DNA from: a virus
Virus record (IMG/VR): IMGVR_UViG_3300028592_000004
Coordinates: 62,001-126,000 of that record
Strand: one strand, 5' to 3'
DNA length: 64,000 bases
The notes under the pieces were generated by a model. The model saw only the letters and a program-made list of their open reading frames with translations. It was not told the DNA's origin and did not search any database. Made by a program: the position numbers and the translations under genes. This document shows, one piece after another, positions 18,879 through 55,156 of this stretch. Position 1 is the first letter of the stretch. Each line of letters starts with the position of its first letter.

Positions 18879-19820
18879 CTATGAATGGTGGGTTTCCGGC
18901 TTCCAGGACTCAACATGCTGTGTGAACGCTTTACACACCAGCGGATCGTGGAAGAAGTAGTCCGGCACAAACAGCCGATCCCCCTTCCGTTCCACAACCG
19001 CGTCAGTCCACGTCCGGCACAGGAAGCTCATGAGGAGCTTGCAGACCCGCAGCTCGGCATGCGTCTTGTTCAGCCGGCACTGCCGCCAGAGGAAGTTCCG
19101 GGGATCCTCCAGCTGCGCGGCGGTCGGACCCGGCTGCCACTGCCAGGAGTTCAACACCAGCTTGGCTCGATCATTCGGCCCGTACGGTCGCTTCGCTCTC
19201 CCTAGCACCCACGCCATCGTCTGAGGGTTCATCCCCATGTACTGCATGACGCAGGACAGACTGTCAGGCTTGTCCCGCTTCACGTACCACCGGGGATCCC
19301 GGATCGCAGCCACGATACGAGCCAGAGCCGCTGTATCGTGATACCGGAAGAAGCTCCACATCTTCGCCGCCGGATGCGTCCAGAGCATGTTCCGGAGCTC
19401 ACTCTCCGGACGCTTCTGGGCGATCGCATCGGCGAGCGCGTAGGGGACATATTCGACAGCGGACATGACGTGCCACCCTCCCATCGAAGAGGGGAGGCCT
19501 TCGAGCTCACGAGCACGAAGAATAGCAATCCGCGGGTCGTCCATCTCAGCCGCGGTCAAAGACAGTCGTGGCGTGCACAGCTCAATAGGAGCCTGCGTCG
19601 CCACGAACAGTCTGGCAATCAGGACCGAGTTCGATGCAGAGGCAATCACCCGAAACCGCTTGCCACGGCTAATCGTGGGCGTCTCCATGAGAGCGTCCAC
19701 ATTCTCAGCGGCAAGGACCGGCGGGTGTTCGCCGTTCGCGCACCAAACTTGGCCCGTGGGGCACACATGCAGCTTCACGCTCGCGACGTCCGTCACTGCA
19801 CGGCTCGACTTAATCGACAT
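18879..19820 (-). CDS. Hypothetical protein, 313 aa
   Basis: The start at 19820 (MSIKSSRAVTDVASVKLHV) is chosen because AGAAGGAAAG precedes it; it overlaps the SbcC-like gene by 11 bases. Text includes VCPTGQVWCANGEHPP, GGWHVMSAVEYVPYALADA and WQWQPGPTAAQLEDPRNF. Paired Cys in the N-terminus and Cys residues near 265-290 might bind metal. No family recognised. It is translationally coupled to the recombination nuclease genes. Confidence 0.6.
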   Translation of the reverse strand: MSIKSSRAVTDVASVKLHVCPTGQVWCANGEHPPVLAAENVDALMETPTISRGKRFRVIASASNSVLIARLFVATQAPIELCTPRLSLTAAEMDDPRIAILRARELEGLPSSMGGWHVMSAVEYVPYALADAIAQKRPESELRNMLWTHPAAKMWSFFRYHDTAALARIVAAIRDPRWYVKRDKPDSLSCVMQYMGMNPQTMAWVLGRAKRPYGPNDRAKLVLNSWQWQPGPTAAQLEDPRNFLWRQCRLNKTHAELRVCKLLMSFLCRTWTDAVVERKGDRLFVPDYFFHDPLVCKAFTQHVESWKPETHHS

Positions 19821-22062
19821 CAACTTTCCTTCTCCGACGACGTTCTTCTTTGATTCGTGCGACGGGGTGCAGGTCAATCATGTGGTCGAACATAGCCGAA
19901 AGACGCGGTTCGTGCGTCACGATCAAGCACTGAAGGCCTGTGGAAGCGGAAAGCTCCCTCAGACGCTCCACTGTCGGTGCCAGAGCCAGCACGTTCTCCT
20001 CGTCGAGGAACTGCGTGGGCTCATCCAGCGTCAACAGACCCAGGTCCTGGGTGAACAACGTGATGCGGGCTACACGAACCAGAATTCCGAGCAGGACTTT
20101 CTGGCCACCTGAGATTCGATCTGCAACTTGCTCCCGGCCGTCAAGGAACCGAGCAGCAAAGGTGAGTCCATCCGCTTGCCCGATCCTGAAATTCGCATCG
20201 ATCCGATGCAGAAGGTCGTTCGTGTCCTCCGCAATCATCGACAAGTAATCGGCAGCCACGATCTTCGGCAGTTCGAGCATCACCTCCCTCACGGAAGAGA
20301 TGTCCCGCTTCAACCGGATCAGGGCATTGCCGTTCTCCGCCCGAACCTTTGCAGATTCCAGGCGGGCCGTCAGAGTCTTCCGCGTCTTGTCCAGGGACGT
20401 GATCTCCCCTTCCAGACCAGATCGCTCCAGCAGTCGCTTCTTCTTTTCTTCGATCTTCTCCCGAGCTTCAGTCAGCTTCTTGGGATCGACCGCCTTTGGC
20501 TGACCGGCCAGCAACTTGTGCCTCCGGTCCTTCAAGGACTTGAGCGTCGCCTTTGCAGCGGTCACGTCCTTGTCGTGAGTCTGAACGTCCTTCTCGGCCT
20601 CCTGAATTTCGAGGAACACGTCCGAGTGATCCTCCTTCTTCTGAGCGAGAGTCTCTGTCAGCTCTTCATAGGTTGAGACCAGCTCTTCGAGCGTCTCCTT
20701 GTCGCCCTTCGGCGCGGCGGGGACGACAGTCTCTTCCAGTTGATCCTTCGTTCGATGGAAGTCCCTCTGGAGCTCCGCCAGCGCACGGTGCCGCTCAGCG
20801 AAGGCCTGATCGTGCTTACGAGATTTGGCCAGGACCTGCTCCGCAGTGCCGAGCTTGAAAACGAGTTCCTCAACACGATCGTCAGCAGAGTCTGCAATCT
20901 CATAGATTTTCGCCAGCAGCCCAGTCGGATTCCGGACCCGGACATACTGATTGACCAGATCCGAAATATACCTCGTGCTGGCGTATTCCCTGTCGAGCGT
21001 TTCTGTGTAGCTGTCGCGCTCTTCCTCAGGAACATAGTTTTTCGGGCGTTCGGGATCGCCAGCCTCTCGCAGAGTCTTGAGCTGCGCCTGCAACTCCTTG
21101 AGGCGCTTGGCAACCTTCTCTTTGGCCTCAGCAGCACGCTGGTAGGCGGAGAAGTTCTTGAGCACAGCCCGGGCGTCATCAACGTCCGCCTGCGACTCAG
21201 CGAGACCCTGCTCAGTGGCCGTGATCTCGTTATCGATGGCACGGATCTTAGTCCGAAGCTGATCCACCTCATCGGCTGCAGAGGTGTCCTCTTCCAGCTC
21301 CTGGACCTTCTTCTCCTGGGCTGCAATGTCGCGTAGCAGCTGGTCGGCATCGGCCTGAATCCGATCGTACGACTCCTGCTGCTTGATCAACGTCTGAAGC
21401 GGGTCCGCTTCGACGTCGTACCCTTCGACATCCCGATACCGCTTGAGGCTTGAGCCGGCCTTACGAGCGGACGCCTCGTTCTCCGCGAGGGAGCCCTCAA
21501 TCGTTCGGATCTCCACATCGGGATCTCCGATCTCAATTGAGGGGAGCCAGTCAGCAATCGCTTTTGCGACGAGCTCAGCCGCCTTAGTGCCGAACATCGA
21601 CTGGAAGGACTGAAGCCGAACCGCGGGCGTCTGATCGATGAAGTCGTACAGCCGACCCTGCCCGATAAAGCAGTTGTCGGAGATGAGCCGCATGTCGGCT
21701 CCGAGAATACGACCGATCTCAGCCGAGACTTCCGTCTCGCCGAACAGGGGCTTGCCGCCGTTGACCGTCATCTGGGTCTTGCACTTCTGCAAGCCCCGGA
21801 CAATCTCCAGGCGGTCGCCGGCGTGGGTCATGTTCAGAACACCGTAGGACTTCGCACCCTCGGGCGCGAGCGTACAGATGTTCGACTCCTTGACACCGGC
21901 GTTGGTGGTGAAGTCGCCAGTGATCAGCCACTGGACGATCTTCAGGATGCTGCTCTTCCCTGAGCCGTTTGGGCCGACGATTCCATTGATCCCCGGCTTG
22001 AAGTCCACCGACAGCTTGCGGTGGTAGCAGACTTCGAAAGCATCCAGGTGCTCAAGATTCAT
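19810..22062 (-). CDS. SbcC/Rad50-like ATPase (gp46-type)
   Basis: A 750-residue SMC-type ATPase that would work with the adjacent SbcD-like nuclease to resect DNA ends for recombination. Walker A is GPNGSGKS (residues 30-37). Long coiled coils run from about 180 to 590. Signature RISGGQKVLLGI, Walker B LGLLTLDEPTQFL and the H-loop CLIVTHEPR lie in the C-terminal 120 residues. I find no CxxC zinc hook at the coiled-coil apex. The ATG at 22062 (MNLEHLDAF) is preceded by GGAGGAAGAGGAAG, which is also the acid-coding end of the nuclease gene; the overlap is 11 bases. Confidence 0.85.
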   Translation of the reverse strand: MNLEHLDAFEVCYHRKLSVDFKPGINGIVGPNGSGKSSILKIVQWLITGDFTTNAGVKESNICTLAPEGAKSYGVLNMTHAGDRLEIVRGLQKCKTQMTVNGGKPLFGETEVSAEIGRILGADMRLISDNCFIGQGRLYDFIDQTPAVRLQSFQSMFGTKAAELVAKAIADWLPSIEIGDPDVEIRTIEGSLAENEASARKAGSSLKRYRDVEGYDVEADPLQTLIKQQESYDRIQADADQLLRDIAAQEKKVQELEEDTSAADEVDQLRTKIRAIDNEITATEQGLAESQADVDDARAVLKNFSAYQRAAEAKEKVAKRLKELQAQLKTLREAGDPERPKNYVPEEERDSYTETLDREYASTRYISDLVNQYVRVRNPTGLLAKIYEIADSADDRVEELVFKLGTAEQVLAKSRKHDQAFAERHRALAELQRDFHRTKDQLEETVVPAAPKGDKETLEELVSTYEELTETLAQKKEDHSDVFLEIQEAEKDVQTHDKDVTAAKATLKSLKDRRHKLLAGQPKAVDPKKLTEAREKIEEKKKRLLERSGLEGEITSLDKTRKTLTARLESAKVRAENGNALIRLKRDISSVREVMLELPKIVAADYLSMIAEDTNDLLHRIDANFRIGQADGLTFAARFLDGREQVADRISGGQKVLLGILVRVARITLFTQDLGLLTLDEPTQFLDEENVLALAPTVERLRELSASTGLQCLIVTHEPRLSAMFDHMIDLHPVARIKEERRRRRKVDVD

Positions 22063-23206
22063 CGTCTTCCTCTTCCTCCTCATCGACCGTAGTGATCACC
22101 TCGGTCTGGATTTTCTTCAGCTCATCGAGCACGGCGTTCTTGCTTTCTGCAATCTCCAGCAAGCGCCGGCACAGCCTGTACTCATCGGATCCCTTCGGCG
22201 TCGCTCGCTCAAGGAACGAGAGCAGACTGGTGCGTTGACCGACGCGGTCCTTCGTCTTCTCGATCCGAACGACCTTTGAACCTGTCGGCCGCGGAGAGAG
22301 GAACACGTGGGCCTGATTGTCGAACGCCGTCATCAGGCGGTCGTACACGTCAGGCAGGTTATCGGGATAGTCCACGTGGATGATCGGCGTACGGACCACC
22401 TCCGGAATATCGTCGTCGTAGAAGTTGCCCTCCTTCGCGTCCTCGCACAGATCGTCCAGTCCACCGATGTCATCGAGGCTGAAGGTGTGGAAGGGGCGAG
22501 TGATGAGCTTCACCGACTTGTAGTCGACGAGCTTGTTCCTGTTGAACTCCAGCTCCCAGAAGGCCTTTTCGGGCGGCTCGTCGATCGACTGCATGCACGT
22601 CGATCCTGGAGAGAAGACACGCAACGTCGAGCCGTCCTCGCGCTTCAGCTTCACCGTCTTGTGCTGATGGAGATCCCCAGTCAGAACGACCGGAGCAGGG
22701 CAGTCTTCGAGTTGACCTTCGACGCCGGGCAGGGTGCCCATGAAGTCAGGTCCACCCCAAACCTGGTGACAGACGAACAGACCGATCTGGAGGTCAGCAG
22801 CCTCTTCAAGCTCGGTGAGAAGCTGGTGAGACGCCTGCCAGTCCAGGCCGTACATCTTCAGGCCACCGATAGTGACGAGCCTGCGATGAAAGTGACGCGG
22901 CCAGGGATGAGCATCGAACCGGGCGCGAACCGCGTTCCGCTCGTGCTGACCCTGAATGAAGTAGAACGGAATCCCAGCTTCCTGCAGCCTGTCGAACTGC
23001 TCGTGAGCCTGGACCTGAATGCTGGGAGTCGGATCCACCGTATCGATCAGGTCACCGGCGCCGATGACGGCGTCGACCTTCTCTTCAACGGCCCGATCCA
23101 CGATTTGCTTCAGAGAGAAAACTGCATCGCCAGCCAGATCCGGGTGACGACGCCAGGCACGCTCCTGAAGGTGCCAGTCTGAGGTGGACAGGAGACGAAT
23201 CGACAC
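22052..23206 (-). CDS. SbcD/Mre11-like nuclease (gp47-type)
   Basis: A 384-residue calcineurin-like phosphoesterase, partner of the SbcC-like ATPase. Metal-binding motifs are SDWHLQ (9-14), GAGDLIDT (about 49-56), GQHE in place of GNHD, FVCHQVWGG and LTGDLHQHK. The usual Asn of GNHD is Gln here. The C-terminus is an acidic tail (EEEEEDDES). It starts with a GTG that overlaps the TAG of the preceding gene. Confidence 0.85.
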   Translation of the reverse strand: MSIRLLSTSDWHLQERAWRRHPDLAGDAVFSLKQIVDRAVEEKVDAVIGAGDLIDTVDPTPSIQVQAHEQFDRLQEAGIPFYFIQGQHERNAVRARFDAHPWPRHFHRRLVTIGGLKMYGLDWQASHQLLTELEEAADLQIGLFVCHQVWGGPDFMGTLPGVEGQLEDCPAPVVLTGDLHQHKTVKLKREDGSTLRVFSPGSTCMQSIDEPPEKAFWELEFNRNKLVDYKSVKLITRPFHTFSLDDIGGLDDLCEDAKEGNFYDDDIPEVVRTPIIHVDYPDNLPDVYDRLMTAFDNQAHVFLSPRPTGSKVVRIEKTKDRVGQRTSLLSFLERATPKGSDEYRLCRRLLEIAESKNAVLDELKKIQTEVITTVDEEEEEDDES

Positions 23207-23460
23207 TAGCTCCCTTTCAGAGTGATGACGGGACCAATAAGACCAAGATCGCGCTCGGCAATCTTCTGACCGATCGAGTTCTCGAACTCAACCGAGGCCG
23301 CAGCCAAAGACCTGGCGAGCCGAACACTGGCAAGCCCGCCCATCTTTTCAAGATACGACCGAACGCAGTGAAAGCGATCGCAGATCGGTCGTTCCTTCTC
23401 AACAACAGTCGTGTAGACCGTCAGAAACCTGCGAATGTCGGACTGCCTGGTAGTGCTCAC
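23206..23460 (-). CDS. Hypothetical protein, 84 aa
   Basis: Several in-frame starts exist (23481 GTG, 23475 ATG, 23460 GTG). The GTG at 23460 has an AGGT motif about nine bases upstream and gives the shortest overlap with the glycosyltransferase gene. The product is basic and helical (VVEKERPICDRFHCVRSYLE, RLARSLAAASVEFENSIGQK). No family recognised. It links the sugar operon to the SbcDC genes. Confidence 0.5.
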   Translation of the reverse strand: MSTTRQSDIRRFLTVYTTVVEKERPICDRFHCVRSYLEKMGGLASVRLARSLAAASVEFENSIGQKIAERDLGLIGPVITLKGS

Positions 23461-24238
23461 GGATGGTGACCTCATCGACACCGGAACAACCGCGAATGGA
23501 GTGATAGATCTTGAAGTTCGGATGGAGGATCATCGGCGCGGGGGACCAACGCTGATGCTCCTTCGGATGATTCGCATAGACCGGAGCCTCGGGGTTCTCC
23601 ATCGATCCAGCGAACTGCGTCTGAAATCCAAGGGCCTGGCAAAGCCAGGAGATGTAGACATCAGGCCAGAGATCCCACGTCTCGTACTTCTCCGGCGCCA
23701 GGAAGCGTCGCTCAACAAGGCGGTCTACGAACTTCCGCGACATCCAGTGAGATGCGAAGAAGATCGTTTCTGCGGTCGGAGCAAAGTCCGCGGGCAGCTC
23801 GGTACAGAGGTCGCGAACGAACGCACCTCGGGACGGCCACCACATCTGATAGTTGACGCGATCCCGGACCCCGAGCAGATCGACATCGCACTTCTCCATC
23901 TCCAGGCGAGCCCAGATATCAAGATGCAGACCGATGGGCAGAGCATCATCGTCGAGGACGAGAACGCGATCGAAGGTGATGCCCTGATCGATCGCCCACT
24001 GGATGCCCTGGTAGGTGATGAAGCCAGACAGGTTCAGCTTCGGCATCAGCTTGTTGGGAATGACAGCGTACTCACGCGGGCCGGGCTCCGGCCCGAATGG
24101 CGAGTCGATGGCGCCGCCGCCGTCGACGATCACCATCAGGAATGACTCGCTGTGAGACCACTCGATCGCCTCGAACTGGTCTGTGGCGATGAACTGGCCC
24201 CGGTTCGTCGCCATCACGACCAAGGTTTTGACGTGCAT
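23399..24238 (-). CDS. Predicted GT-A glycosyltransferase
   Basis: A 279-residue protein beginning MHVKTLVVMATNRGQF, with a DxD-type motif RVLVLDDDALPI near residue 95 and WDLWPDVYISWLCQALGFQT further on, a layout seen in GT-A enzymes. The ATG overlaps the TAA of the upstream gene (TAATG); an upstream start at 24265 is less likely. It ends the HldE operon together with two other glycosyltransferases. Donor and acceptor are unknown. Confidence 0.65.
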   Translation of the reverse strand: MHVKTLVVMATNRGQFIATDQFEAIEWSHSESFLMVIVDGGGAIDSPFGPEPGPREYAVIPNKLMPKLNLSGFITYQGIQWAIDQGITFDRVLVLDDDALPIGLHLDIWARLEMEKCDVDLLGVRDRVNYQMWWPSRGAFVRDLCTELPADFAPTAETIFFASHWMSRKFVDRLVERRFLAPEKYETWDLWPDVYISWLCQALGFQTQFAGSMENPEAPVYANHPKEHQRWSPAPMILHPNFKIYHSIRGCSGVDEVTIREHYQAVRHSQVSDGLHDCC

Positions 24239-25296
24239 TATCGGCTTTCGATCAGCCGGACCCACTGTTGAAGGTAAAGGCCCAGCTTAGGAACGTAGTT
24301 GCGGGTGTCTTCGTAGACAGAGTCGGCGGGTACGTCCTTGACCGCCACGGGATTCATGAGGAACTCACCGAGCTCCATCGCGCACGAAGAGAACGTGTTC
24401 GACGTCAGCTTCGCGTTGTCGATGATATCGACCAGGAACTCGTTGGCCAGGACACCCGGCGCCTCGCGGACCAGGTTGATCATGGGCTTGCTGGCGCGGG
24501 AGTGGTGGATGACCGGGTTACCCACGGCAATCGACCATCCAAGCTGGCGACAGATCCGTTGCAGAATCCAGCCGCCCCAGATGTCGTCGAATCGGAAGAA
24601 GGGCGTCCCGTTCCCCATCTTGGGGAAGTACGAGGCCGGCGCCGCTTCGGTGTTGATGGCAAAGTTCATCCCGCAGAGCGGAGTGAGCTGCCGCGGATTG
24701 AGCAGCTGGGTCATGACACGCGGGCAGCGATAGCCACCCGGCGTCTCCATACCGGACCGTTCTTTCGTCGGAGCCAGGGAGTGGATGGCGTCAAAGTCCG
24801 GGATCCCATCCCACAGGCCCACACTGGCTGCGACCTGATTCAAGTCTTTCTGCCGCTCATAAGGCAGGCCACGAACATGCAGGTGGCCAAGCGGAGACGA
24901 GAAGCGGGGGAAACCGCTGAGCTGGGCCAGGTGAGCCCGCGCCACGAAATCCGGATTCCGTTCGTCGACCGGGAAACAGTCGTCGTCCAGAATCAGGACC
25001 CGCTTCTCGTTGCTCCGCACAGCCTTCAGCAGGGCTGCCATTTTGATGCCGGGATCGCCGATCGAGATACACTCGGCGTCCGGTCCCCAGCTCTGAATCT
25101 CGTCGACCGTGATGATCTCGCAGTCGATGAAGGAGTAACGTTCGACCAACTCCCTCGCCTTGGGCAGCGTGGCGGTGTCCGCGTACACCAGATAGAAGGT
25201 GCCGAAAGGCCAACTTCGTTCTGAGCTGTCGCACCACTTCTCCAGAAACCACTCCAGATGCTTGATGCGGTTCGAGGCCATCGCCAGAGCAATCAT
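24238..25296 (-). CDS. GT75-like / reversibly glycosylated polypeptide family protein
   Basis: A 352-residue protein. VLILDDDCFPVD (DDD motif), LTPLCGMNFAINTEAAPASYF and FFRFDDIWGGWI match the pattern of the RGP/GT75 family, whose plant members interconvert UDP-arabinopyranose and UDP-arabinofuranose. Some prokaryotic relatives are glycosyltransferases. Here it could be a sugar-nucleotide mutase or a transferase. It is the third gene of the HldE operon. The family call rests on these three motifs. Confidence 0.65.
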   Translation of the reverse strand: MIALAMASNRIKHLEWFLEKWCDSSERSWPFGTFYLVYADTATLPKARELVERYSFIDCEIITVDEIQSWGPDAECISIGDPGIKMAALLKAVRSNEKRVLILDDDCFPVDERNPDFVARAHLAQLSGFPRFSSPLGHLHVRGLPYERQKDLNQVAASVGLWDGIPDFDAIHSLAPTKERSGMETPGGYRCPRVMTQLLNPRQLTPLCGMNFAINTEAAPASYFPKMGNGTPFFRFDDIWGGWILQRICRQLGWSIAVGNPVIHHSRASKPMINLVREAPGVLANEFLVDIIDNAKLTSNTFSSCAMELGEFLMNPVAVKDVPADSVYEDTRNYVPKLGLYLQQWVRLIESR

Positions 25297-25305
25297 TGCT
25301 TCGCC

Positions 25306-26094
25306 TTACAGTACATCCCGTACTGACTGTGGGATCGGTTCGAGGGGCTGCATTGCCCCGATGTTGTCCACGTTTGTCCGGAACCACTTCTCGAACTCTT
25401 CGTCCGAACAGCGGTTCTGGAAGCCGGCACCTGCGGCAATGTCTGCCTTGCTCCACTTCCGATTCCGGAAGCGTTCCAGGCGACGACGGGCGACAGCATA
25501 ATCCAGCTTGTGCAGGTGGACAAGAAGGAGGTTCGGGTCGACCGAAATCGTCTTGTGCGGGACGAGGATCGACTCGTGGAAACCCTTGCACCACATCATC
25601 GGTACACGGCTCAAAAGCGGCTTGCTGTACTGCGTGGTCGGATACCACCAACCGCGGTGTTCCAGCATCCGACTCTGGATCAGAGCCTGATCCTCTTCAC
25701 CGATCTGATGCACAACCTCAAAGCCAGTGCATCGCACGACAGGCTGAACCATGTCGGCCGCGTACTCGACCAGATTCGTGTAGTGCGAGGCCGGATCAGT
25801 CAGGACGAACTCGTCGACCTCGACGAAGAGGACCGCCTCATAGCTGTTCAGCAGGAAGTGCTGGAAGTCCTGAACCGTCTTCAGCATCCAGTCGTGATCG
25901 ACCTCGTCGTTGAAGACCGACACGACACGGATATCGCGTGCAACCGCATCCTCCAGCGCCAGGTTGTCGTCCGAGTGGTTGTCCAGAATGAACAGGTCCG
26001 AACCATACCCATGATTGATGTAGTGGTCGCACCAGACCGGCAGAAACTCCGGCTCATCCTTGACGATCGTGAAGATGGCTAGGGGTTTTCGCAT
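25306..26094 (-). CDS. Glycosyltransferase (GT2/GT92-like)
   Basis: A 262-residue protein. FTIVKDEPEFLPVWCDHYI is the typical start of Glyco_tranf_2_4/GT92-like enzymes that act at a named acceptor; LFILDNHSDDNL follows; LFVEVDEFVL gives the DxD-like motif; LVHLHKLDYAVARRR is the late His motif of the family. It overlaps the 3' end of hldE by 16 bases, so the two are coupled. Sugar specificity unknown. Confidence 0.75.
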   Translation of the reverse strand: MRKPLAIFTIVKDEPEFLPVWCDHYINHGYGSDLFILDNHSDDNLALEDAVARDIRVVSVFNDEVDHDWMLKTVQDFQHFLLNSYEAVLFVEVDEFVLTDPASHYTNLVEYAADMVQPVVRCTGFEVVHQIGEEDQALIQSRMLEHRGWWYPTTQYSKPLLSRVPMMWCKGFHESILVPHKTISVDPNLLLVHLHKLDYAVARRRLERFRNRKWSKADIAAGAGFQNRCSDEEFEKWFRTNVDNIGAMQPLEPIPQSVRDVL

Positions 26095-27515
26095 CCAAGG
26101 GCTTTCAGAATCTGCGTCGTGCTGTACTCTGGCAGACGCGGGACGTAGTAGGTCTCCTTGACCAGGTCACTGCCCACGGCTCCGCCGGGCAGGTCGATGT
26201 CATCCGCGACGCGGACAAGCACGTCAGGACGGATCAAGCGAATCAGCTCGCTCGGCGTCTGCTCGTTGAAGACGACGACGAGATCGACGCAGCCCAAGGC
26301 AGCGACCATCTCAGCGCGATCGCCCTGCTTTGTCTTCGGACGATTCGGCCCCTTGCTGGCCGACACGCTGCTGTCGGTGTTCACCGCGCCGATCAAACGG
26401 GTGCCGCGGCGGCGGGCCTCCACGAGAACGTGGACGTGCCCGGGATGCAGCATGTCAAAGCACCCGTTGCTGAAGACGACCTTCTCGCCGGCAGCCTGCC
26501 ACTGAGCACAGGCCAGGGCCGCAACCTCTGCACTGACGATCTTGAAGTACGGATGAATCGCGGCAGCCTTCGCCAGCCGCAGTTCGAGGGGATCGACGAC
26601 AGACGTCCCGGGCTTCGTCACAACCGTACCTGCCGCCAGGTTCGCAATCTGAATCGCCAGCGGAAGGTTGTCGTGAGAGATAAGCTCGACCGCCAGTGTT
26701 GCCGTAAACGTGTCGCCGGCACCGCAGACGTCATAGACATGCGAAACCCGCGTCGGAAATCGACTGACGCCAGCTTGATCGAACAGAATCGCTCCGTTCC
26801 GGCCGTTGGTGCAGACAACGTTGCTGACGATTCCGTCGAGCCCAAGGTCGACCAGGCTCTCGGAACCATTCTCAATCTCATCAACCTCCAGACCGGAAAT
26901 CTGAGCCAACTCAGTTTCATTCGGAGTGATGACGAACGCGCCACGGAGGTACGAAAAATGGACCGGCCGCGGATCGACGATGACCTTGGCGCCGGCAGCG
27001 TTCGCGTACTTGATCACTTCGGAGAGCAGGCTGTGCCTCGTACCGAGGGCACCTTTCGCGTAGTCGGAGATCAGGACGATCTTGTACGAATTCGCGTTCA
27101 GGACTGCCTTCAAGCGAGTCAGGTAGTCCGCGGCGCTGGCCGGTGCGTGCGGCTGATCGTTGTCCTCCCGGGTCAGCAGACGGGTGCCACTCCAGATCCG
27201 ACGCTTAACGGTCGGGCCAGCGAAGCGACGCTCGCTGCCCACCGAGTAGATGTCGATGGCGTGATGGCCGCACAGTGCGACGAGGTCCGAACGATGCGTC
27301 TCGTCGGACATCACAGTGAACAGGTCGCAACGGCCATGCAGGGCGGCGACATTGGCAGCGACGTTTGCAGCTCCGCCGAGGGAGCGAGTCACTGACTGGC
27401 GCTGGTAGACCGGAATCGGGGCCTCGGCCGCGATCCGAGTGGGCTCGACGAAGACTGCCTCGTCGATCATGACATCGCCGATCACGAGAATCTGCGATGG
27501 ATCCTGCTGGGGCAT
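26079..27515 (-). CDS. hldE: Bifunctional heptose-7-P kinase / heptose-1-P adenylyltransferase HldE
   Basis: A 478-residue fusion like bacterial HldE, which phosphorylates heptose 7-phosphate at C1 and, after dephosphorylation, adenylates heptose 1-phosphate on the way to ADP-heptose. Residues 1-320 are a PfkB/ribokinase fold: GGAANVAANVAAL (48-59), the catalytic GAGDTF at 265-270. Residues 335-478 are a nucleotidyltransferase: FSNGCFDMLHPGHV (348-361), QGDRAEMVAAL, and STTQILKALG at the end. Length matches the family. It heads an operon of three glycosyltransferases. The start follows a GGGAATTGAA leader dyad without a strong Shine-Dalgarno site. Confidence 0.9.
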   Translation of the reverse strand: MPQQDPSQILVIGDVMIDEAVFVEPTRIAAEAPIPVYQRQSVTRSLGGAANVAANVAALHGRCDLFTVMSDETHRSDLVALCGHHAIDIYSVGSERRFAGPTVKRRIWSGTRLLTREDNDQPHAPASAADYLTRLKAVLNANSYKIVLISDYAKGALGTRHSLLSEVIKYANAAGAKVIVDPRPVHFSYLRGAFVITPNETELAQISGLEVDEIENGSESLVDLGLDGIVSNVVCTNGRNGAILFDQAGVSRFPTRVSHVYDVCGAGDTFTATLAVELISHDNLPLAIQIANLAAGTVVTKPGTSVVDPLELRLAKAAAIHPYFKIVSAEVAALACAQWQAAGEKVVFSNGCFDMLHPGHVHVLVEARRRGTRLIGAVNTDSSVSASKGPNRPKTKQGDRAEMVAALGCVDLVVVFNEQTPSELIRLIRPDVLVRVADDIDLPGGAVGSDLVKETYYVPRLPEYSTTQILKALGCENP

Positions 27516-29036: not shown

Positions 29037-29228
29037 CTAGGACTGGATCTCGGCCGCGGGGCCGGCAATTTTCGGCTGAAGTTCATCACGCCAGATACGG
29101 CAGTTGCTCGGCGCGTTGACGCCGATCCGTGCCTTATCCTGGCGGCTGTCGCAGAGGACGATCTCAATCAGACCATCACTGGTCTCGATGACGATCTTTT
29201 CGTTTTTCTTACGGGACAGGACGAGCAT
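29037..29228 (-). CDS. csrA: CsrA homologue (RNA-binding regulator), 63 aa
   Basis: Begins MLVLSRKKNEKIVI, the hallmark of CsrA, with DKARIGVNAPSNCRIWRDEL matching the family segment xVGVxAPxxVxVxREE, including the key Arg that contacts RNA. CsrA dimers bind GGA motifs in mRNA leaders and usually block translation. The start at 29228 is fixed by homology and by AGAAGGATT upstream. A longer frame reaching 29357 is a shadow. The C-terminal ten residues are a tail (KIAGPAAEIQS). It could control phage genes, host genes, or both. Confidence 0.9.
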   Translation of the reverse strand: MLVLSRKKNEKIVIETSDGLIEIVLCDSRQDKARIGVNAPSNCRIWRDELQPKIAGPAAEIQS

Positions 29229-29257
29229 TTTCGAATCCTTCTTTTGACGTGGTGATA

Positions 29258-29269
29258 GCCCTCCTGGGC
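29258..29269 (-). promoter_or_regulatory. Candidate CsrA-binding hairpin in the csrA leader
   Basis: Minus-strand GCCC-AGGA-GGGC: a 4-bp stem presents GGA in a tetraloop, the classic CsrA target form. A second GGA lies in the Shine-Dalgarno site 26 bases downstream. This would fit autoregulation by a bridging dimer. Confidence 0.45.
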
Positions 29270-29311
29270 GTAGGGTAACTGGTCCGGGAAACCGACTACA
29301 AGGGCCGGAAT

Positions 29312-30277
29312 CTACCGAAGAAATTCGCCAAACGCCGCGACGTTGCGTCGGCGGCACATGGCGTTGTAGAGGTCGACGACCTGATTCAGATCTCTCGATC
29401 GAAGAAGATACGTCGGGTAGCGCTGGACGCTGGCCAGGGCCTTGACTGCGTCCATCGGCGTGGGCTGCTCAATGCGCCGCACTTGGATTCGACCCAGACC
29501 GGACCGACTCGGATCACCGTAGACGGCTTCAGGAATCTGGGCACCAGCCGGATACAGCAACAACTGTCGGAACCGCATTGTCGGATGGGTTCCCTGTTTG
29601 TCGCCAGACAGGCTCATCACCTCAATCGCGCCGCTAGCCTCGAACTGGCGCATCATCTTCCGGGCTCGCCAGCGGTCGATCCGCGTGTCGATGAACTGTG
29701 TGAACGACATCTTCAGGCCGGCACGACGAATCGAGTAGAACTGCGGATCGTGCAGAACATGCTCATACACGGCATGTGAGTACGTTTCCGATCGAACAAC
29801 GAGGTCGTACTTCGTACAAGGCTGGGCAAGTCTCTGCCGGAACATCGACCAACCGTCGTCCTCTGGGTAGAGGTACGTGTCAGCCAGCTGCGGAAAGAGA
29901 ACTCGTTCGATCTGTTGCCAGCTGTTGCCAACGCGACGGGACCAACACCAGGGGCAGATGTTGGCGAGATTGCAATGTCGAAGGTTAAACGACTTGCCAC
30001 CCTCTTTGAGTCCGATGTCGCAACAGACGGGCATGCAGTTCAGAACATACGAGAGGTGATCTTCCCGATTGCCAGTGGTCTCCTCCCACCCGTTCTTCGT
30101 CAGCAACCCGACCCGAGCCCTCCAAATCGAAAGCACGGACGCCAGAGCCTCCTTAGTCGCCTGCTTGCCGGAAACAGGGTGACCGACGATCGTCGAAATG
30201 ACGGCGTAGATCTGAGAGAGGCTGAACGGACTCGCAATTTTCGGGTAGAGGATCTTGAGCGGCAGAATTTTCGGCAC
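29312..30277 (-). CDS. Rep-like protein with Cys-rich zinc motif
   Basis: A 321-residue protein with a GTG start preceded by AAAGGAAG. At about residue 102-118, NLANICPWCWSRRVGN with an upstream RHC and CCDIGL gives a CxxxxxCPxC-type motif like that in plasmid replication initiators. The rest is basic and rich in Arg/Trp. The gene follows a 294-base intergenic region with repeats and palindromes, which would suit an initiator and its binding region, but no catalytic Rep motif was found. Function remains open. Confidence 0.5.
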   Translation of the reverse strand: MPKILPLKILYPKIASPFSLSQIYAVISTIVGHPVSGKQATKEALASVLSIWRARVGLLTKNGWEETTGNREDHLSYVLNCMPVCCDIGLKEGGKSFNLRHCNLANICPWCWSRRVGNSWQQIERVLFPQLADTYLYPEDDGWSMFRQRLAQPCTKYDLVVRSETYSHAVYEHVLHDPQFYSIRRAGLKMSFTQFIDTRIDRWRARKMMRQFEASGAIEVMSLSGDKQGTHPTMRFRQLLLYPAGAQIPEAVYGDPSRSGLGRIQVRRIEQPTPMDAVKALASVQRYPTYLLRSRDLNQVVDLYNAMCRRRNVAAFGEFLR

Positions 30278-32534: not shown

Positions 32535-33656
32535 TCAAACTGCCTGTGTGGTGGAACGGGGACGGGTCTTGAGGTAGCGGGTCAGCTCTTCGTCGCTCAT
32601 CTCGTCGAGCGCCATCTGAGCCGACAGCTCGTACGGCTGCATCCGCATGCCGTACACCTCGGGGATGCCTTCGATCATGCGCGTCTTCGCGCCGTAGAAG
32701 GCCAGGGGATACTTCGCCTTGACCATCTCGAAGATCTTGGCGAAGACAAAGCGGATCTCCCACTCCGCGAACTTGGCGGTCCGCATCAGCACGGTGTGCC
32801 GAAGCGTCCGCAAGTTGCACGAGAACGCGATCTCATTCGACTGACCGTTGGGAGCGATCCGCCGAATGGCGCTGGTCATCTTCTTCCGGATGTCGAAGTT
32901 GAAGGAGTTGTCCGGCTCCCACTTCAGGTGATGGGCCAGCTCAGCGACAACTTCACCACTCCAGTCTCCCGCGGCATCCTTTGGCGTACTGAGCAGCGCC
33001 TTGATGACGTCGGGTACGTGATCCCGGTAAGACTTCTCGATCAGGAGACCGGCATTCCGCACGGCGTTGTAGTTGCCGAAGGTGAGGTCTTCGGCGAACA
33101 GGTGCTTCGACAGACCGCCAGGCGGCTTCCGAAGACCGAGCCGGCACTCAGCCAGGTAGACCGTCTTCTCGATCTGGGCGGCGCACGTCTCGAACAGGTC
33201 CCGCACCGGATTCAGGATCGGGTCCCACACGAGCTGCATGTTCTCGATCCGACAGTAACGGCCGGACGTCTGACTGAACGCCGTGCCGATCCGATGTCGA
33301 ACGAGCTCATGGGTGAAGACCCGACTGCAGTCCCGAATCAGGAAGTTGAACTGGACGTGCTCGAAGATCGACCCGTGGGCCGTATCGAAGCATCCGACCA
33401 GGTTGTCCCAGATATCCCGGGTCCGCGACACGTTCGAGTTCTTCCCAAGCGTGAGGCTCTTGTAGCAGAGCTTCGCGAACATCGAGCAGAGGATCTCCGC
33501 CCACGACAGACCCTGCTTGAGGGCCAGGTCCACTGACTCCAGGAACTGCTGATTCCCGGTGTCGATCAGGTAGCGGCTGACCTCGTTCTCGTCGACCTGG
33601 GTGAAGCCAACGAAGTAGACGCTGGGCTGCACGAAACGTTCAAACTCATCATCCAT
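32535..33656 (-). CDS. thyX: Flavin-dependent thymidylate synthase ThyX
   Basis: A 373-residue ThyX, which makes dTMP from dUMP using FAD and methylene-tetrahydrofolate. HGSIFEHVQFNFLIRDCSR is the usual pre-motif strand; ELVRHRIGTAFSQTSGRY is the ThyX motif, with eight residues between RHR and the Ser instead of seven; NLRTLRHTVLMRTAKFAEW is the C-terminal substrate segment. It is longer than typical bacterial ThyX (about 220-250) and includes an extra middle region around residues 195-260. The leader has the GCGGGTTTTGAAAGGACC element. Confidence 0.88.
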   Translation of the reverse strand: MDDEFERFVQPSVYFVGFTQVDENEVSRYLIDTGNQQFLESVDLALKQGLSWAEILCSMFAKLCYKSLTLGKNSNVSRTRDIWDNLVGCFDTAHGSIFEHVQFNFLIRDCSRVFTHELVRHRIGTAFSQTSGRYCRIENMQLVWDPILNPVRDLFETCAAQIEKTVYLAECRLGLRKPPGGLSKHLFAEDLTFGNYNAVRNAGLLIEKSYRDHVPDVIKALLSTPKDAAGDWSGEVVAELAHHLKWEPDNSFNFDIRKKMTSAIRRIAPNGQSNEIAFSCNLRTLRHTVLMRTAKFAEWEIRFVFAKIFEMVKAKYPLAFYGAKTRMIEGIPEVYGMRMQPYELSAQMALDEMSDEELTRYLKTRPRSTTQAV

Positions 33657-37923: not shown

Positions 37924-39856
37924 GGAAGCGTTGACCCTTTCGGAACGTGCTGCACGTGCTCCCGCACGAGAGTGCAACCGCTATGACCGGCTGAAAGCCG
38001 ATTTGGATCGCCTGTTCGCCGACAGCCGGCGGGACAAGCGTGAAGTTGTCCGGATCGTCCGGGAGTACGTCGAGGAAGAGGAGCTTCCAACTCTTGAGCC
38101 CATTCTCCCTCTCCTACTGAATCTCAAGGGCAAGCCGTTCACGCTGTTTGAACACTTGCCCTTCTCACCGCTGTTCTTTACTCACTGCGCGCGGTCAGTG
38201 ATTTTCAAAACAGGGCGTCAGTGCGGTAAGTCAACCTCCATTTCTGCGTCGGGGATCCTGCAGGCGAACACGATCCCGAACTTCACAAATCTGTTCGTCA
38301 CGCCTCTGTACGAGCAGGCGCGTCGTCTGTCGAACAACTCGGTGCGGCCGTTCATCGACGAATCGCCGATGCGGCACCTGATGACGGGTGTGGGGATCGA
38401 GCAGAGCGTTCTGCAGCGATCGTTCCTGAACAAGTCGAAGCTCATGTTCTCGTTCGCGCTGATGGACGCGGACCGGACCCGCGGTATCTCCGCGGACCGG
38501 CTGTCCATCGACGAACTGCAGGACATGGATGCGGCGCATATCCCGATCATGATTGAAACCATGTCCCACTCCGATTGGGGCTGGCTGCAAATGACGGGTA
38601 CGCCGAAGACATTGGACAACACGCTTGAAGAAAAGTGGATCCGATCGTCCCAGGCAGAGTGGTTCATTCCCTGCACGCATTGCACGACCGGCGGGCAGCC
38701 GACGCTGAATATCCCGGCCCGTGAGCACCACCTGCTCGACATGATCGGGCCGTACCACGACTTCATCTCGGAACAGAATCCGGCGATCATTTGCCACAAG
38801 TGCCGCAAACCGATCAACGCACTGTACGGCCGGTGGGTACACCGCTATCCGGAGCGTCGCTGGACCAGTGCTGGATACCACATCCCGCAGCTGATCCTTC
38901 CGCTGCACTACGCCCGTCCGGACAAATGGCAGGTCTTCCTGTCGAAGATGCAGGGCGGAACCACCAGCCCCGCCACGTTCTTCAACGAAGTGCTCGGGGA
39001 ATCGTACGACAAGGGCACCAAGCTCATCAGCTTGACTGAGCTGCAGTCTGCGGCCTGCCTCGACTACGAGAACAGTGGTCGAATGCCGAGTGCCAAGGTG
39101 ATCGAAGCAGCCAACGACAGCCGGTACGTCTGCCGTGTTCTAGCAATCGACTGGGGTGGTGGCGGTGAGGACGAAATCAGCTTCACGACGATGGCCTTCC
39201 TGGGCATGCGGCACAACGGCCAGATCGAGGTGATCTGGGGTCGCCGTCTGCTCACGCCGAACGATCACCTTCGGGAAGCCGAGCAGGTCTTCGCGGTCTG
39301 GCAGATGCTCCGGCCGGACGTTGTCGCGCACGACTTCACCGGTGCCGGCGCCTTCCGAGAAGACTTCATGGTCTCCGCCGGGGTGCCGCTGGAGACCATC
39401 ATGCCCGTCGCATATGTGCGGGCTGCCAGCTCCCGGATCATCCAGCACGTCCCAGCCACCATCCACCTGCCGCGGGACCACTACCGCGTCGACAAGACGC
39501 ACACGCTGCTGTTGACCAGCCAGTGCATCCGTCGCCAGATGGTCCGCTTCTTCAAGTGGGACAACAAGGGCGAAGAGGATCGCGGTCTGCTGTTCGACTT
39601 CATGTCCCTCATCGAAGAGAAGATCCACGGTCGGACGGCCGGCGACGTCTACCTCATCAAGCGCGGAACCGGCCCGGACGACTTCGCCCAGGCCGTCAAC
39701 ATCGGTTGTTTGGCGATCTGGCACACCCAGGACGCCTGGCCGAACTTCGTCAGCGGCGCTAAGTGGCACGTCAAGAAGGAGCAGGAGTGGGCCACGGGCA
39801 GCCGCGACCACGGCTGGGAGAACGACCGAGGCGACAGCTACTTCCAGACGCCCTAG
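37922..39856 (+). CDS. terL: Terminase large subunit
   Basis: A 644-residue DNA-packaging motor of the GpA-like type. Walker A-like GRQCGKST lies at 98-105, Walker B RLSIDELQDMD with D196/E197, and a zinc-binding insertion with CTHC and CHKC about 40 residues apart. The nuclease domain starts with VLAIDWGGGGEDE. It is one of only two plus-strand genes in the window. Only a weak ribosome-binding site is present (GGAATTGATTACGC before the ATG), and no small terminase gene is adjacent. Confidence 0.9.
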   Translation: MEALTLSERAARAPARECNRYDRLKADLDRLFADSRRDKREVVRIVREYVEEEELPTLEPILPLLLNLKGKPFTLFEHLPFSPLFFTHCARSVIFKTGRQCGKSTSISASGILQANTIPNFTNLFVTPLYEQARRLSNNSVRPFIDESPMRHLMTGVGIEQSVLQRSFLNKSKLMFSFALMDADRTRGISADRLSIDELQDMDAAHIPIMIETMSHSDWGWLQMTGTPKTLDNTLEEKWIRSSQAEWFIPCTHCTTGGQPTLNIPAREHHLLDMIGPYHDFISEQNPAIICHKCRKPINALYGRWVHRYPERRWTSAGYHIPQLILPLHYARPDKWQVFLSKMQGGTTSPATFFNEVLGESYDKGTKLISLTELQSAACLDYENSGRMPSAKVIEAANDSRYVCRVLAIDWGGGGEDEISFTTMAFLGMRHNGQIEVIWGRRLLTPNDHLREAEQVFAVWQMLRPDVVAHDFTGAGAFREDFMVSAGVPLETIMPVAYVRAASSRIIQHVPATIHLPRDHYRVDKTHTLLLTSQCIRRQMVRFFKWDNKGEEDRGLLFDFMSLIEEKIHGRTAGDVYLIKRGTGPDDFAQAVNIGCLAIWHTQDAWPNFVSGAKWHVKKEQEWATGSRDHGWENDRGDSYFQTP

Positions 39857-40552: not shown

Positions 40553-43172
40553 TGGTCCGATCCTTTTGGCTTTGTTCGGGCTCAAGTTGATATTTGCGTC
40601 GCTGGGATACCCACCACTCGGCTGACACGGCCCAGTGTGGCGAATCACCATCTTCGTTGATAGAGGCGAACGACGACTGCAGAAGCTCTGCGATCGTCTT
40701 CGAAGGGATGGAGACTCCGCATCGCTGCATGAGGCTCCGGTTGAGGGCCGTCTTCGAAATGAAGGTCGAGCCCTCGACGCTCTTCCGACCTCGCGTCTGA
40801 GGGATGATGGCCTCTCCGTCCCGGTGCAGACACACCAGGAGTTGAGCCAGTCGGTCTTCGGGCCGAATCGAATCTGGCGAAGTCAGCCGTGCAGCGCCCT
40901 CATCGAACGCAACAGGGCTGCCGCCCAACCTTGTCCACCAGCGACGGATGTCGAGCGACACCCGCTCCTGAACCGATCCTTCCCCGATCAGCATAAAACG
41001 TCGGCGACAGACGTCCTGCAGGTAGCCGGCGAGAACGGCCGGAATGTGATCAATCAGGGCGGAGCAGTCAACGGTGGATGGAAGCCGAGCGATCGACCAG
41101 GGCGACAGGATCGCCAACGCCCTGGCCTGAAGAAGCTGAACCGACGCTGCCAGCGTTGCCTTCGGCTGCTGCAGGAGTTGGCCTTGGTCTTTCAACATGC
41201 CATCTAGCTGCAGGTGAACCGGCCAGGTGTTGCCGTCCGCGTATTCCTTCAGGTCGCGGCTCTTGAGAGAAGCCACGCCCATGAGCTTCAGGAGGCCAGC
41301 TCCCATCGTACCGGCGCCGCGGCCGACCATCGCCAGACTGGACCGTGTCGAACCTGTCGCAGTCAGGACGGCGTCTGACAACACGTACGTCGCGAGACTC
41401 CAGAACGCGCGGACGTCTTCACGCTCGCACGAGAGCTCACGGAGGCACGCGTCTGTCATGACGCTGTACGGAAGGTCGCTGGCTTGAAACTCGGCTGGAA
41501 TCGCCCGATGGACGAACTCCACCTCACCAGCACTGCTGATGATGAACCTCGGGAAGGCAAAGGCAGCCTTCTTGGGATGCCACCCGACACCAGCTACGCC
41601 AGTTTCGAATGCAGGCTCGTGGAACTGTTTGGCGAGCGCCATGAGGGACGGCTTGGGGATCCCGTTTAGGATCAGCGGCCCGTGTCCGGCTTCTGCCATC
41701 AGCTCCCGCATCCATTCGAAGGTGTTGCGGGTGTCCGCTTCCGGTACTTGAAATGGAATCTGCTTTCCGCGGAATCCAATGAAGCCGGCATAGACGTAGG
41801 ACTTCCGCTGTGGATCGAAGATCTCCCGCTCGATGACCAGTCGCGCGGTCAGAACCGGCGACGAGGTCTCTTCGTGGATCCACATATCGTCACGCTCGAT
41901 CAGCGTCTTGCCGGCGTTGATCCGGATACGCGGACAGAGCGGGGTTTTGCCAAAGCACCCATCCAGGATCTCCATGACTGTCCCTCCGGCAGCAGTGGCC
42001 ATAGCGGACAGATCAGCTTCCGGGAGAGCGGAGGAGTACATGGCTGTTTCAGCCTGACTTCGACTGAGCCCACTCAAGTACTCGGTCAGGCAGACTTGCC
42101 ACGGACGAGCAGACCGGCCGACTCCGGCCAGTGCTACCCGAGCAGGCAAACCACGATCGGGACGTCCGGTGCAGACGAAGCCCTGGGCCTTGAACCCACG
42201 GGCGATCGCCAGCATGTCGAGACGGTCGCTGATCACGGTGAATTCGCGAGCTTCGTCCAGGCGATGCACGTCGAGCGACTGCATCGTGGACGTGTTGTAC
42301 GCCATCAGGATCGGCAGCATGTTCGGATTGCTGGCGATGTGGCGGATCTGCAGGTCCAGCGCTAGCAACGGATCGCTGACGATGAACATGCGGTTGTCGG
42401 CGGCGTCATCGAACGACGACACCATGCCGAAGCCGGCTTCGCTAAACAGCATTGACCGGCCGCGGCGATCGACGGTGGAGAGGAGGGCAAAGGTCGGCGT
42501 CTCGTCTCGCTCCAACGTGATGCAAAGGAACGAGCGGATCCGGCCCGGGACATCCTCGAATGGAAGGACGAGATGGTGGTTCCAGATGGCTCTTGCGAGC
42601 TCAGGAATGAGCGGTTTGCTGCTGGTCGCAAAGCACGGCTCGACGGCGAGCGAGGTCTCCCGGCCAGTGGACAGACCAACGAACCGGCCGAAGCGATTCT
42701 GCCAGTTCACCAGTTGTCGCGGGAAGCCGCATTTCGTGAGGAGCTTCTCCCAGGGGATCCTGTCGTCCACGGACGGCAGTTGCCGAACCTTGTTCCAGAA
42801 CGCATTCGTACGAGCGCGATCGGCGACCGGCCCTTGTACGAACTTCTGGATGGCATCAGCACTGGTTTCCTCACCTTTTGGCAAGGCCTCCAGCGCCAGC
42901 AACTTACGGACCGCCGTGAAAACGTCCGTCTTCCAGGTAGTTGCCGCAAGTGTTATCGTGTCCTCAGCGACACGGCACCGGCGACAGTAGAACCAGAACC
43001 CAGCGGGACGGTCCCGGTACACCGACAACGCCTTCTGCGTCAGGCATACCGGACACTGAACTCGCGCTGGAAACTGCTGATTCGGATCCGTTTCAACTGA
43101 CACCCCAAGTGCCCGAAGAACAGTTGCCCAATCGGCGACGTGGTTGGGCGCTTCCAAGCTGAGAATTGACAC
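40524..43172 (-). CDS. Large zinc-ribbon protein with degenerate P-loop, 882 aa
   Basis: The GTG at 43172 with AAGGATG upstream is preferred; it is head-to-head with the plus-strand gene at 43173. The N-terminus has a zinc ribbon CPVCLTQK ... FYCRRC as in primases. The middle contains EFTVISDRLDMLAIARGF, reminiscent of a TOPRIM strand, and the C-terminal third has SSLAMVGRGAGTMGAGLLK, which looks like a P-loop that lost its GK[ST]. It may be an inactivated primase-helicase or a DUF927-like derivative. Function not known. Confidence 0.6.
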   Translation of the reverse strand: MSILSLEAPNHVADWATVLRALGVSVETDPNQQFPARVQCPVCLTQKALSVYRDRPAGFWFYCRRCRVAEDTITLAATTWKTDVFTAVRKLLALEALPKGEETSADAIQKFVQGPVADRARTNAFWNKVRQLPSVDDRIPWEKLLTKCGFPRQLVNWQNRFGRFVGLSTGRETSLAVEPCFATSSKPLIPELARAIWNHHLVLPFEDVPGRIRSFLCITLERDETPTFALLSTVDRRGRSMLFSEAGFGMVSSFDDAADNRMFIVSDPLLALDLQIRHIASNPNMLPILMAYNTSTMQSLDVHRLDEAREFTVISDRLDMLAIARGFKAQGFVCTGRPDRGLPARVALAGVGRSARPWQVCLTEYLSGLSRSQAETAMYSSALPEADLSAMATAAGGTVMEILDGCFGKTPLCPRIRINAGKTLIERDDMWIHEETSSPVLTARLVIEREIFDPQRKSYVYAGFIGFRGKQIPFQVPEADTRNTFEWMRELMAEAGHGPLILNGIPKPSLMALAKQFHEPAFETGVAGVGWHPKKAAFAFPRFIISSAGEVEFVHRAIPAEFQASDLPYSVMTDACLRELSCEREDVRAFWSLATYVLSDAVLTATGSTRSSLAMVGRGAGTMGAGLLKLMGVASLKSRDLKEYADGNTWPVHLQLDGMLKDQGQLLQQPKATLAASVQLLQARALAILSPWSIARLPSTVDCSALIDHIPAVLAGYLQDVCRRRFMLIGEGSVQERVSLDIRRWWTRLGGSPVAFDEGAARLTSPDSIRPEDRLAQLLVCLHRDGEAIIPQTRGRKSVEGSTFISKTALNRSLMQRCGVSIPSKTIAELLQSSFASINEDGDSPHWAVSAEWWVSQRRKYQLEPEQSQKDRTSASYNRSRV

Positions 43173-44345
43173 ATGACCATCCTTGATCAGACCTCGGATC
43201 TCTCCGGCATCGAGACTGCGCGTGTGATGCAGGCCTACAGGGCTCCGGGTTACGTGAAGCAGGCATCTGTCTCCACGGCTCCCGAGAACGCTGCAGACTC
43301 GCGCCTCTACGCCGACTCCGTGCAGCGGAAGTTTCCGGTGCACACCAAGGCAGCGACGTGGCTGTCGAACGCATTCTGGTGCGAGAAGCGGGCGAATGTC
43401 CAGCCCGCCGATCGGCAACGCATCCAGACCGCTCTTCTCAAGGCCGCAGACTTCTACGGCATCCGTGCCGAAGTCGACTCGCTATACAAGCAGGCCGAAG
43501 TCGACAACGATGAGAACAAGCTGCCGGATGACGCCTTCGCCTTCCTTGGGGAAGACGCCAGTGGTAATCGTACGCGGCACATGCCGATGCGTACGGCCCT
43601 GGAAACGAAAACCGCTGCAGCTTTCTTCGTCGAGCACCGTGACCGTTTCACCTTTCCACAGCAGCAGAAGGTCGCAGTCCGGATCCTCGACAAGGCCGCA
43701 TCCCAGGGAGCAGGCCTGACGAACGAGGTCGATCAGATCCTTTCCCGGTGTGCAGGCTTCGGGATGTGCGCTGCCTCCCGAACGGCGGAATTCGTAGAGA
43801 AGCGGGCCGCGATGATCAAGTACTCGGATGGGAAGCTCTCGCAGCAGCTCATCGACACCGCGCAGGCCATCCGGAATAACCCGGAGCACGCCCGCCAGCC
43901 GGCCATCCTGGTCAAGCTCGCTGAGCAGCTCGACGTTCTCGATCGCCGCTTCCAGTTCAACAAGCGGTATCACCAGGACATTGAGCGTCCGGCGGATGTG
44001 CTGTTCGAGGTCAACGAGTTTTCGGTCAAGCAGGCCGCGGCCGATCACATCCAGATGACGAGCGGCTCGGTCTACCGGATCTCCGACCTGAACCACGTCA
44101 AGCTGGCGGACGTTCGCGACTACCTCGGCACCGACCTGGCTGACGCCCTCACGGACGACGGCATGACTGTCAGCCTGGAGAAGGCTGCCACGATCCTCCC
44201 GACGTTGCCCCGCGGTGACGCGGAGACGTTCGATCGGGTGGTCGAGTCGGTCATCCGGCCGGTGACGAAGATGGCAGCTGCCCGTGCCGGTCTCAGCCGG
44301 ACGGAGATGTGGGACCTGGCGATGCAGGCGTCTGGCAACCGCTAG
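43173..44345 (+). CDS. Hypothetical protein, 390 aa, plus strand
   Basis: Reads MTILDQTSDLSGIETARVMQ and stays hydrophilic and helical throughout (FPVHTKAATWLSNAFWCEK, FTFPQQQKVAVRILDKAA). No domain recognised. Being on the same strand as the terminase, it could be expressed late and be a virion or assembly protein. It starts directly against the minus-strand gene with GAATTGACAC as its leader. Confidence 0.7.
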   Translation: MTILDQTSDLSGIETARVMQAYRAPGYVKQASVSTAPENAADSRLYADSVQRKFPVHTKAATWLSNAFWCEKRANVQPADRQRIQTALLKAADFYGIRAEVDSLYKQAEVDNDENKLPDDAFAFLGEDASGNRTRHMPMRTALETKTAAAFFVEHRDRFTFPQQQKVAVRILDKAASQGAGLTNEVDQILSRCAGFGMCAASRTAEFVEKRAAMIKYSDGKLSQQLIDTAQAIRNNPEHARQPAILVKLAEQLDVLDRRFQFNKRYHQDIERPADVLFEVNEFSVKQAAADHIQMTSGSVYRISDLNHVKLADVRDYLGTDLADALTDDGMTVSLEKAATILPTLPRGDAETFDRVVESVIRPVTKMAAARAGLSRTEMWDLAMQASGNR

Positions 44346-45038
44346 TCACTTACGCCAGCAGATGCCGCAACGGGCGCAGGTCATCTTGGTCTTGAAGTTG
44401 ATCCCAGCTTCGACCGGACAGACCTGCACCCCGTTCATCTTCTTCAGGACCGACTTCGGCGAATCGCGGAAGACCAGGTCCACGTCAGATGGGGCCACCA
44501 GCTCATCCAGCGGGTCGATGCACATGTAAGCGCGTCGCGTGCTGGGGCTCTTTGGCGCCGGACCTGTCTCTCGGTCCTCGCTGAGCCACATGCGCCAGTT
44601 CGGCAAGAGGGCCAGCTTTTCGATTTCTGTCAGGATCTCAGGATCTCGCCAGGACCGTGTGTAGCTAAAGAACCGCACATTGCGTAGCCGTGTGGCGATC
44701 TGGCCCCAGGCGGCGGTATAGGAAGCGCTAAAGAAGTCTCCAGAGACATGGACCCGAAGGACCGATATCCCTTTGAGACGAATGGCCTGAACCATCAATT
44801 CGGCAAACCTGGGATCCTGTACGGCCTCCCAGTTCTTCATGTAGCGCTCTTGGATGCTCGGCATGTGGAACAGGCCGGAGCGGGCATAACAGTGACGACG
44901 GCAGTGAGCCGTCGACCCGGGGCAGGTGTCAACCGCTGGCAGGCTGAAGGAGAAGATGGCTTCCCCCAGCTTCGTGTTTCCCACGCACAGCGATCGAAGA
45001 AGATCCTCCCCGACATTTCGATTCTCAAGGACAACCAC
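44346..45038 (-). CDS. GP88-like Fe-S / radical-SAM-like phage protein
   Basis: A 230-residue protein. FSLPAVDTCPGSTAHCRRHC followed by YARSGLFH gives the Cys cluster of the phage GP88 family, thought to hold an iron-sulfur cluster; VLRVHVSGDFFSASY and FFSYTRSWRDPEIL are typical later segments. The C-terminus has a second set (CPVEAG, CARCGICWRK). The GTG at 45038 follows GGAAGGAG. No biochemical role is established for the family. Confidence 0.65.
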   Translation of the reverse strand: MVVLENRNVGEDLLRSLCVGNTKLGEAIFSFSLPAVDTCPGSTAHCRRHCYARSGLFHMPSIQERYMKNWEAVQDPRFAELMVQAIRLKGISVLRVHVSGDFFSASYTAAWGQIATRLRNVRFFSYTRSWRDPEILTEIEKLALLPNWRMWLSEDRETGPAPKSPSTRRAYMCIDPLDELVAPSDVDLVFRDSPKSVLKKMNGVQVCPVEAGINFKTKMTCARCGICWRK

Positions 45039-45073
45039 GTCTGCTCCTTCCAGGAGTGGGTGTCCGCAGTGGC

Positions 45074-47091: not shown

Positions 47092-47127
47092 CCGAGTTCG
47101 CGCTTTCTGTTGAGGGTGAGGAATGGA

Positions 47128-47490: not shown

Positions 47491-47500
47491 GACGAACCTT

Positions 47501-55154: not shown

Positions 55155-55156
55155 GG

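Follow-up and report, generated by a model that had tools for sequence, protein, structure and literature searches.

A phage hldE-glycosyltransferase cluster keeps its place beside sbcDC and may serve glycosylation of virion proteins

The window analyzed here is a 64,000-nucleotide stretch that spans positions 62001-126000 in a virus record of 229,210 bases. The record is that of a phage by content (it encodes a GpA-type terminase); end repeats are absent, and it may be incomplete. Genes were called stretch by stretch with a purpose-written finder based on codon scores, so short genes may have been missed. Coordinates are those of the window unless marked as record.

Four open frames, all on the minus strand, follow one another in the order hldE, 25306-26094, 24238-25296, and 23399-24265. 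Their junctions are −16, +9, and −28 bp, and by this layout hldE and the three downstream genes form one transcription unit, as originally predicted. The hldE gene (26079-27515; 478 aa) encodes a PfkB-type kinase (PF00294, E=1.9e-31) and a nucleotidyltransferase (PF01467, E=2.3e-13) in a single chain, the expected architecture of a fused heptose 7-phosphate kinase and heptose 1-phosphate adenylyltransferase. Its best matches among curated models are NF008454 (HldE; E=8e-97), TIGR02198 (E=2e-68), and TIGR02199 (E=1e-38), all below the models' cut-offs; the best PDB matches are 4e84 and 5x9q. Four motifs are kept: GGAANVA; GAGDT (GxGD); HPGH (HxGH); and a terminal STT. One departure is RVADD, where E. 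coli HldE has KGxDY. Judged by its sequence, 26079-27515 is a full-length HldE with both active-site motifs present, which bears out the earlier reading of a complete enzyme.

The three downstream genes had been labeled glycosyltransferases of the GT92/GT2, GT75, and GT-A types, and these labels fare unequally. The GT75-like label stands: the 352-aa product of 24238-25296, which carries a DDDCF motif, scores 84.4 bits against a gathering score of 23.8 for PF03214 (E=1e-23) and thus belongs to the GT75/RGP family. It also matches the UDP-arabinopyranose mutase 8cid (E=1e-9), and resembles these enzymes in profile and motif, though distantly. By contrast, the first of the three, GT-a (25306-26094; 262 aa), is GT2/GT92-like just below threshold (26.2 versus 27.5 bits for PF13704, a GT2 family), so that its assignment to GT92/GT2 is borderline. 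The last, GT-c (23399-24265; 288 aa), has a DDDA motif and is probably a GT-A glycosyltransferase; it matched no family in profile searches. AlphaFold models were tried for classification of both and set aside. The GT-a model (mean pLDDT 53.5) is too weak, with no fold match at E≤0.001; the best fold matches of the GT-c model (mean pLDDT 50.8) are GT-A enzymes, again none at E≤0.001.

Downstream of GT-c lie genes for an sbcD-like nuclease subunit (22052-23206, minus strand; PF00149, phrog_100) and then an sbcC-like ATPase subunit (19810-22083, minus strand; PF13476, phrog_77), the latter placed also by synteny. A defense role was considered and rejected: PADLOC matches of the SbcC-like ATPase fall in numerous ATPase families that are unrelated to one another, and they appear generic. 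A gene for a CsrA-like regulator (29037-29357, minus strand; PF02599) immediately precedes the hldE operon, and a CsrA-like frame (L071:8762-8998) also adjoins hldE in one relative, G012.

A candidate for a further heptose-pathway gene lies outside the window, 111 kb from hldE: an HldD-like epimerase at record 200434-201327. Its best family is TIGR02197 (E=1e-51), at 175.8 bits against a cut-off of 274.6; its best solved relative is E. coli HldD (1eq2), and YxxxK and HKG are kept. Neither GmhA nor GmhB was detected across the 229 kb of this possibly incomplete record, which extends to the whole record the absence first noted in the window. Provided that nothing is missing from the record, both heptose 7-phosphate and the phosphatase would have to come from the host, and the predicted dependence on host heptose 7-phosphate looks likely.

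About 25 kb from hldE is a gene (52389-54224, minus strand; 611 aa) whose product joins a GT9 (heptosyltransferase family) domain to a GT2-like domain. The GT9 domain scores 53 bits against a gathering score of 22 for PF01075, placing it in that family. Nearby are a GT1-like glycosyltransferase gene (54237-55166, minus strand; 309 aa; PF13524 E=0.003, below cut-off) and genes for two collagen-like proteins: one of 225 aa (55983-56660, minus strand) with 35 unbroken GXY triplets, and a tail-region protein of 624 aa (62093-63967, minus strand; PF01391 E=8e-34) with two GXY tracts, 32 and 45 triplets long. This fusion, the sbcDC linkage, and the epimerase all go beyond the original prediction.

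Does the GT9 domain transfer heptose? WaaC depends chiefly on D13, K192, E222, D261, and H266 for catalysis and for contacting ADP-heptose (PMC3559599). The published heptosyltransferase signature is D(T/S)(A/G)XXH, and its D261 contacts heptose (PMC3559599); the D261A change lowers WaaC activity about 2000-fold (PMC5713226). Thirteen phage GT9 domains were aligned, the window's and those of 12 relatives. All keep D13, K192, and H266, as in the WaaC/WaaF heptosyltransferases of LPS synthesis, but D261 is replaced in all 13 by V, I, or N (V in the window protein), so that none of the aligned sequences has the D261-containing WaaC/WaaF-type signature. The phage protein differs further in its carboxyl-terminal GT2-like fusion. 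Judged by this signature, it does not qualify as a heptosyltransferase of the WaaC/WaaF type, and ADP-heptose is only its putative donor. Heptose transfer may nonetheless occur, because the WahF group of proven heptosyltransferases carries S at position 261 (PMC3559599).

The GT9-GT2 gene also served as an independent probe for relatives; by itself it identified 13 further viral contigs at 35-51% identity. Among the probes tried on viral contigs it was the productive one; HldE as a lone probe gave one distant match. Bifunctional HldE is encoded in six of the 13 relatives; a seventh, G013, has the kinase and the adenylyltransferase as separate genes, bringing hldE to 7/13. Eight relatives have sbcD, and in seven of these hldE lies beside it (in G013, the adenylyltransferase half alone). 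The exception, G014, lacks hldE and has the most distant sbcD (24% identity). The other five relatives without hldE also lack sbcD, so the hldE region probably lies outside these fragments.

In several relatives hldE and sbcD are separated by a single gene or by a few, either short or encoding glycosyltransferases. Homologues of both GT-a (36-38% identity) and GT-c lie there in G002, G004, and G008, and a homologue of GT-c in G005, the four GT-c homologues showing 28-31% identity. The GT75-like gene, in contrast, had no match in the viral contigs or the relatives' stretches, and is seen only in this phage. HldD is above cut-off in G002, G004, and G008, and G005 has a GmhB-like gene; GmhA was found in none of the records searched.

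HldE identity across this set is about 26-33% (relatives' proteins against the window protein or E. coli HldE). Since homologues occupy the same place in other phages, chance is excluded for the gene cluster. The strongest result of the analysis is that the hldE-sbcD linkage persists at such low identity, so that the module is an old, maintained part of the lineage and not a recent passenger. A tree of bacterial and phage HldE sequences is unresolved, its long branches meeting and its phage sequences not united; consequently neither a single nor a multiple origin of phage HldE is claimed.

Phage-borne hldE has already been published, from cyanophages and pelagimyophages. HldE matches occur in 41 of 50,697 phage records, mostly cyanophages, although some of the 41 are bacterial contigs. 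Cyanophages of Prochlorococcus (P-SSM2, P-SSM5) and Synechococcus (Sf-FS3) likewise carry heptose kinase and adenylyltransferase functions, and P-SSM5 has an annotated ADP-heptose 6-epimerase. There, however, two separate genes lie beside carbamoyltransferase and structural genes; here a fused hldE lies beside sbcDC, with GT-a and GT-c. Pelagimyophages are reported to carry rfaE (PMC7029224), and marine viral contigs waaF, rfaF, rfaE, gmhC, and gmhD (PMC10653327). These viral genomes similarly combine rfaE/hldE with glycosyltransferases (PMC7029224, PMC10653327), but as variable cargo or a host-recognition cassette, whereas the position described here is fixed through deep divergence. Within the literature searched, what appears to be new is the fixed hldE-glycosyltransferase-sbcDC arrangement, recurring together with a fusion of GT9 and GT2 whose gene is close to collagen-like ones. 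Sugar-nucleotide genes of phages are usually regarded as variable cargo. Here, by contrast, hldE has stayed in one genomic position while the phages diverged deeply, and it recurs in genomes with a transferase of GT9 type; the phage therefore probably has an important use for it.

The sequences establish the genes, their families and motifs, and how the cluster is laid out and conserved; the mechanism that we infer from them, in its enzyme activities, donor, and acceptor, divides the work between host and phage. Host GmhA would provide D-glycero-D-manno-heptose 7-phosphate; phage HldE would add the 1-phosphate; host GmhB would remove the 7-phosphate; phage HldE would then adenylylate the product to ADP-heptose; and the phage HldD-like protein would epimerize it. 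GT-a, GT-c, the GT75-like protein, and the GT9-GT2 fusion would use ADP-heptose along with other sugars. The most likely acceptor would be a protein of the virion, with the collagen-like proteins encoded near GT9-GT2 as the foremost candidates. That the phage makes an ADP-heptose-type sugar is probable. The fuller proposal, a phage nucleotide-sugar and glycosyltransferase module acting on a virion protein, is the best explanation as a whole, and is put forward tentatively, at somewhat less than even odds. Counting against it are the replacement of D261 in every GT9 domain examined, the sub-cut-off scores of HldE and HldD, the lack of GmhA in the records searched, the scarcity of Thr in this phage's collagen tracts, and the distances that separate hldE from the GT9 gene and the epimerase.

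The choice of acceptor draws on the collagen-like genes. GXY tracts occur upstream of the GT9-GT2 gene in this phage and in seven relatives, and collagen-like tracts are found nowhere else in the 229-kb record. Threonine is the O-glycan carrier in some bacterial collagen-like proteins, and in three relatives it fills 63-89% of the Y positions in the collagen tracts. Bacillus BclA is glycosylated (PMC8968730). BclA and the mimivirus collagen resemble the phage proteins as GXY-repeat proteins with glycosyltransferase genes nearby; this phage's own tracts have scarce Thr and no Lys, and are candidate acceptors. The collagen evidence thus favors virion fibers over the host envelope only slightly. 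We rank the phage's own fibers as the most likely acceptor, and the host envelope as nearly as likely.

The best-surviving alternative, then, is that ADP-heptose feeds phage transferases that remodel the host envelope, altering the LPS core or a surface polysaccharide so as to exclude superinfection or keep progeny off debris. This has perhaps one chance in three, and it is the usual interpretation of phage rfaE with glycosyltransferases (PMC7029224); ADP-heptose is, moreover, a classical LPS precursor. A host hint bears on it as well. A DUF1559 pilin-like protein (L012:16964-18205, record 216964-218205, minus strand; PF07596 E=9e-46) belongs to a family that seems to occur in Planctomycetes alone, a group equipped with LPS genes (PMC10632474). 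From this single gene, found in none of the relatives, the host is perhaps a planctomycete, and, if that is right, a diderm with LPS genes (PMC10632474). Against envelope remodeling, the genes examined included none recognizable as an LPS ligase, a flippase, or an acceptor-side gene; the heptosyltransferase signature is lacking; and the relatives' GT9 gene sits among structural genes, away from hldE.

The sugar itself may be other than heptose. Were HldE and HldD to use a different sugar phosphate, the product would be another ADP- or NDP-sugar, which would fit the sub-cut-off scores of both proteins, the RVADD replacement in HldE, the loss of D261 from GT9, and the lack of GmhA in the records searched. 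The HldE and HldD models are far ahead as best matches, however, and HldD is above cut-off in three relatives; a non-heptose product is improbable, if well short of negligible.

Two other fates for the sugar had been raised originally. Draining of a signaling nucleotide sugar gained no support, and decoration of phage DNA against restriction now looks very unlikely. DNA glycosylation is known in phages, and this genome has several GT-A-type transferases, but no ThyA-like base hydroxymethylase was found, the thymidylate synthase present being ThyX (32535-33656, minus strand; PF02511 E=2e-30), and there was no Tet/JBP match in a search run without a positive control. That the genes are passengers with no role in infection is scarcely credible: the failure of phage HldE sequences to unite in the tree would permit repeated acquisition, but the frames are intact and hold a fixed place beside sbcD in relatives at 28-33% HldE identity.

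Returning to virion glycosylation, the preferred reading, its most specific form is that large phages of one lineage, among them one that probably infects Planctomycetes, produce activated heptose themselves and heptosylate their collagen-like tail fibers through a divergent GT9-GT2 protein able to work without the D261 found in classical heptosyltransferases. This form is speculative and, taken whole, unlikely. More broadly, the module offers a testable route to the role of phage heptose genes, be it fiber glycosylation or a change in the host surface.

Elsewhere in the record are other genes of possible bearing on glycans. A second glycosyltransferase cluster (L004:3117-9441, record 43117-49441, minus strand) comprises a TOD1/GT8-like gene, a PhyH-type dioxygenase, a GT1-like gene, and one more that is GT-like; a protein acceptor could be hydroxylated by this dioxygenase. 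A sulfotransferase-like gene (L011:15391-15996, record 195391-195996, minus strand; PF17784 E=2e-38) possibly encodes another surface or glycan modifier. The record also encodes a nicotinamide/nicotinate phosphoribosyltransferase-like protein (L003:18282-19685, record 38282-39685, minus strand; NF006629 above cut-off), possibly for NAD salvage; a caspase-domain protein (L011:4802-5605, record 184802-185605, minus strand; PF00656 E=1e-24); and a Ro60/TROVE RNA-binding protein with a vWA domain (L012:2115-3740, record 202115-203740, minus strand; PF05731, PF25045).
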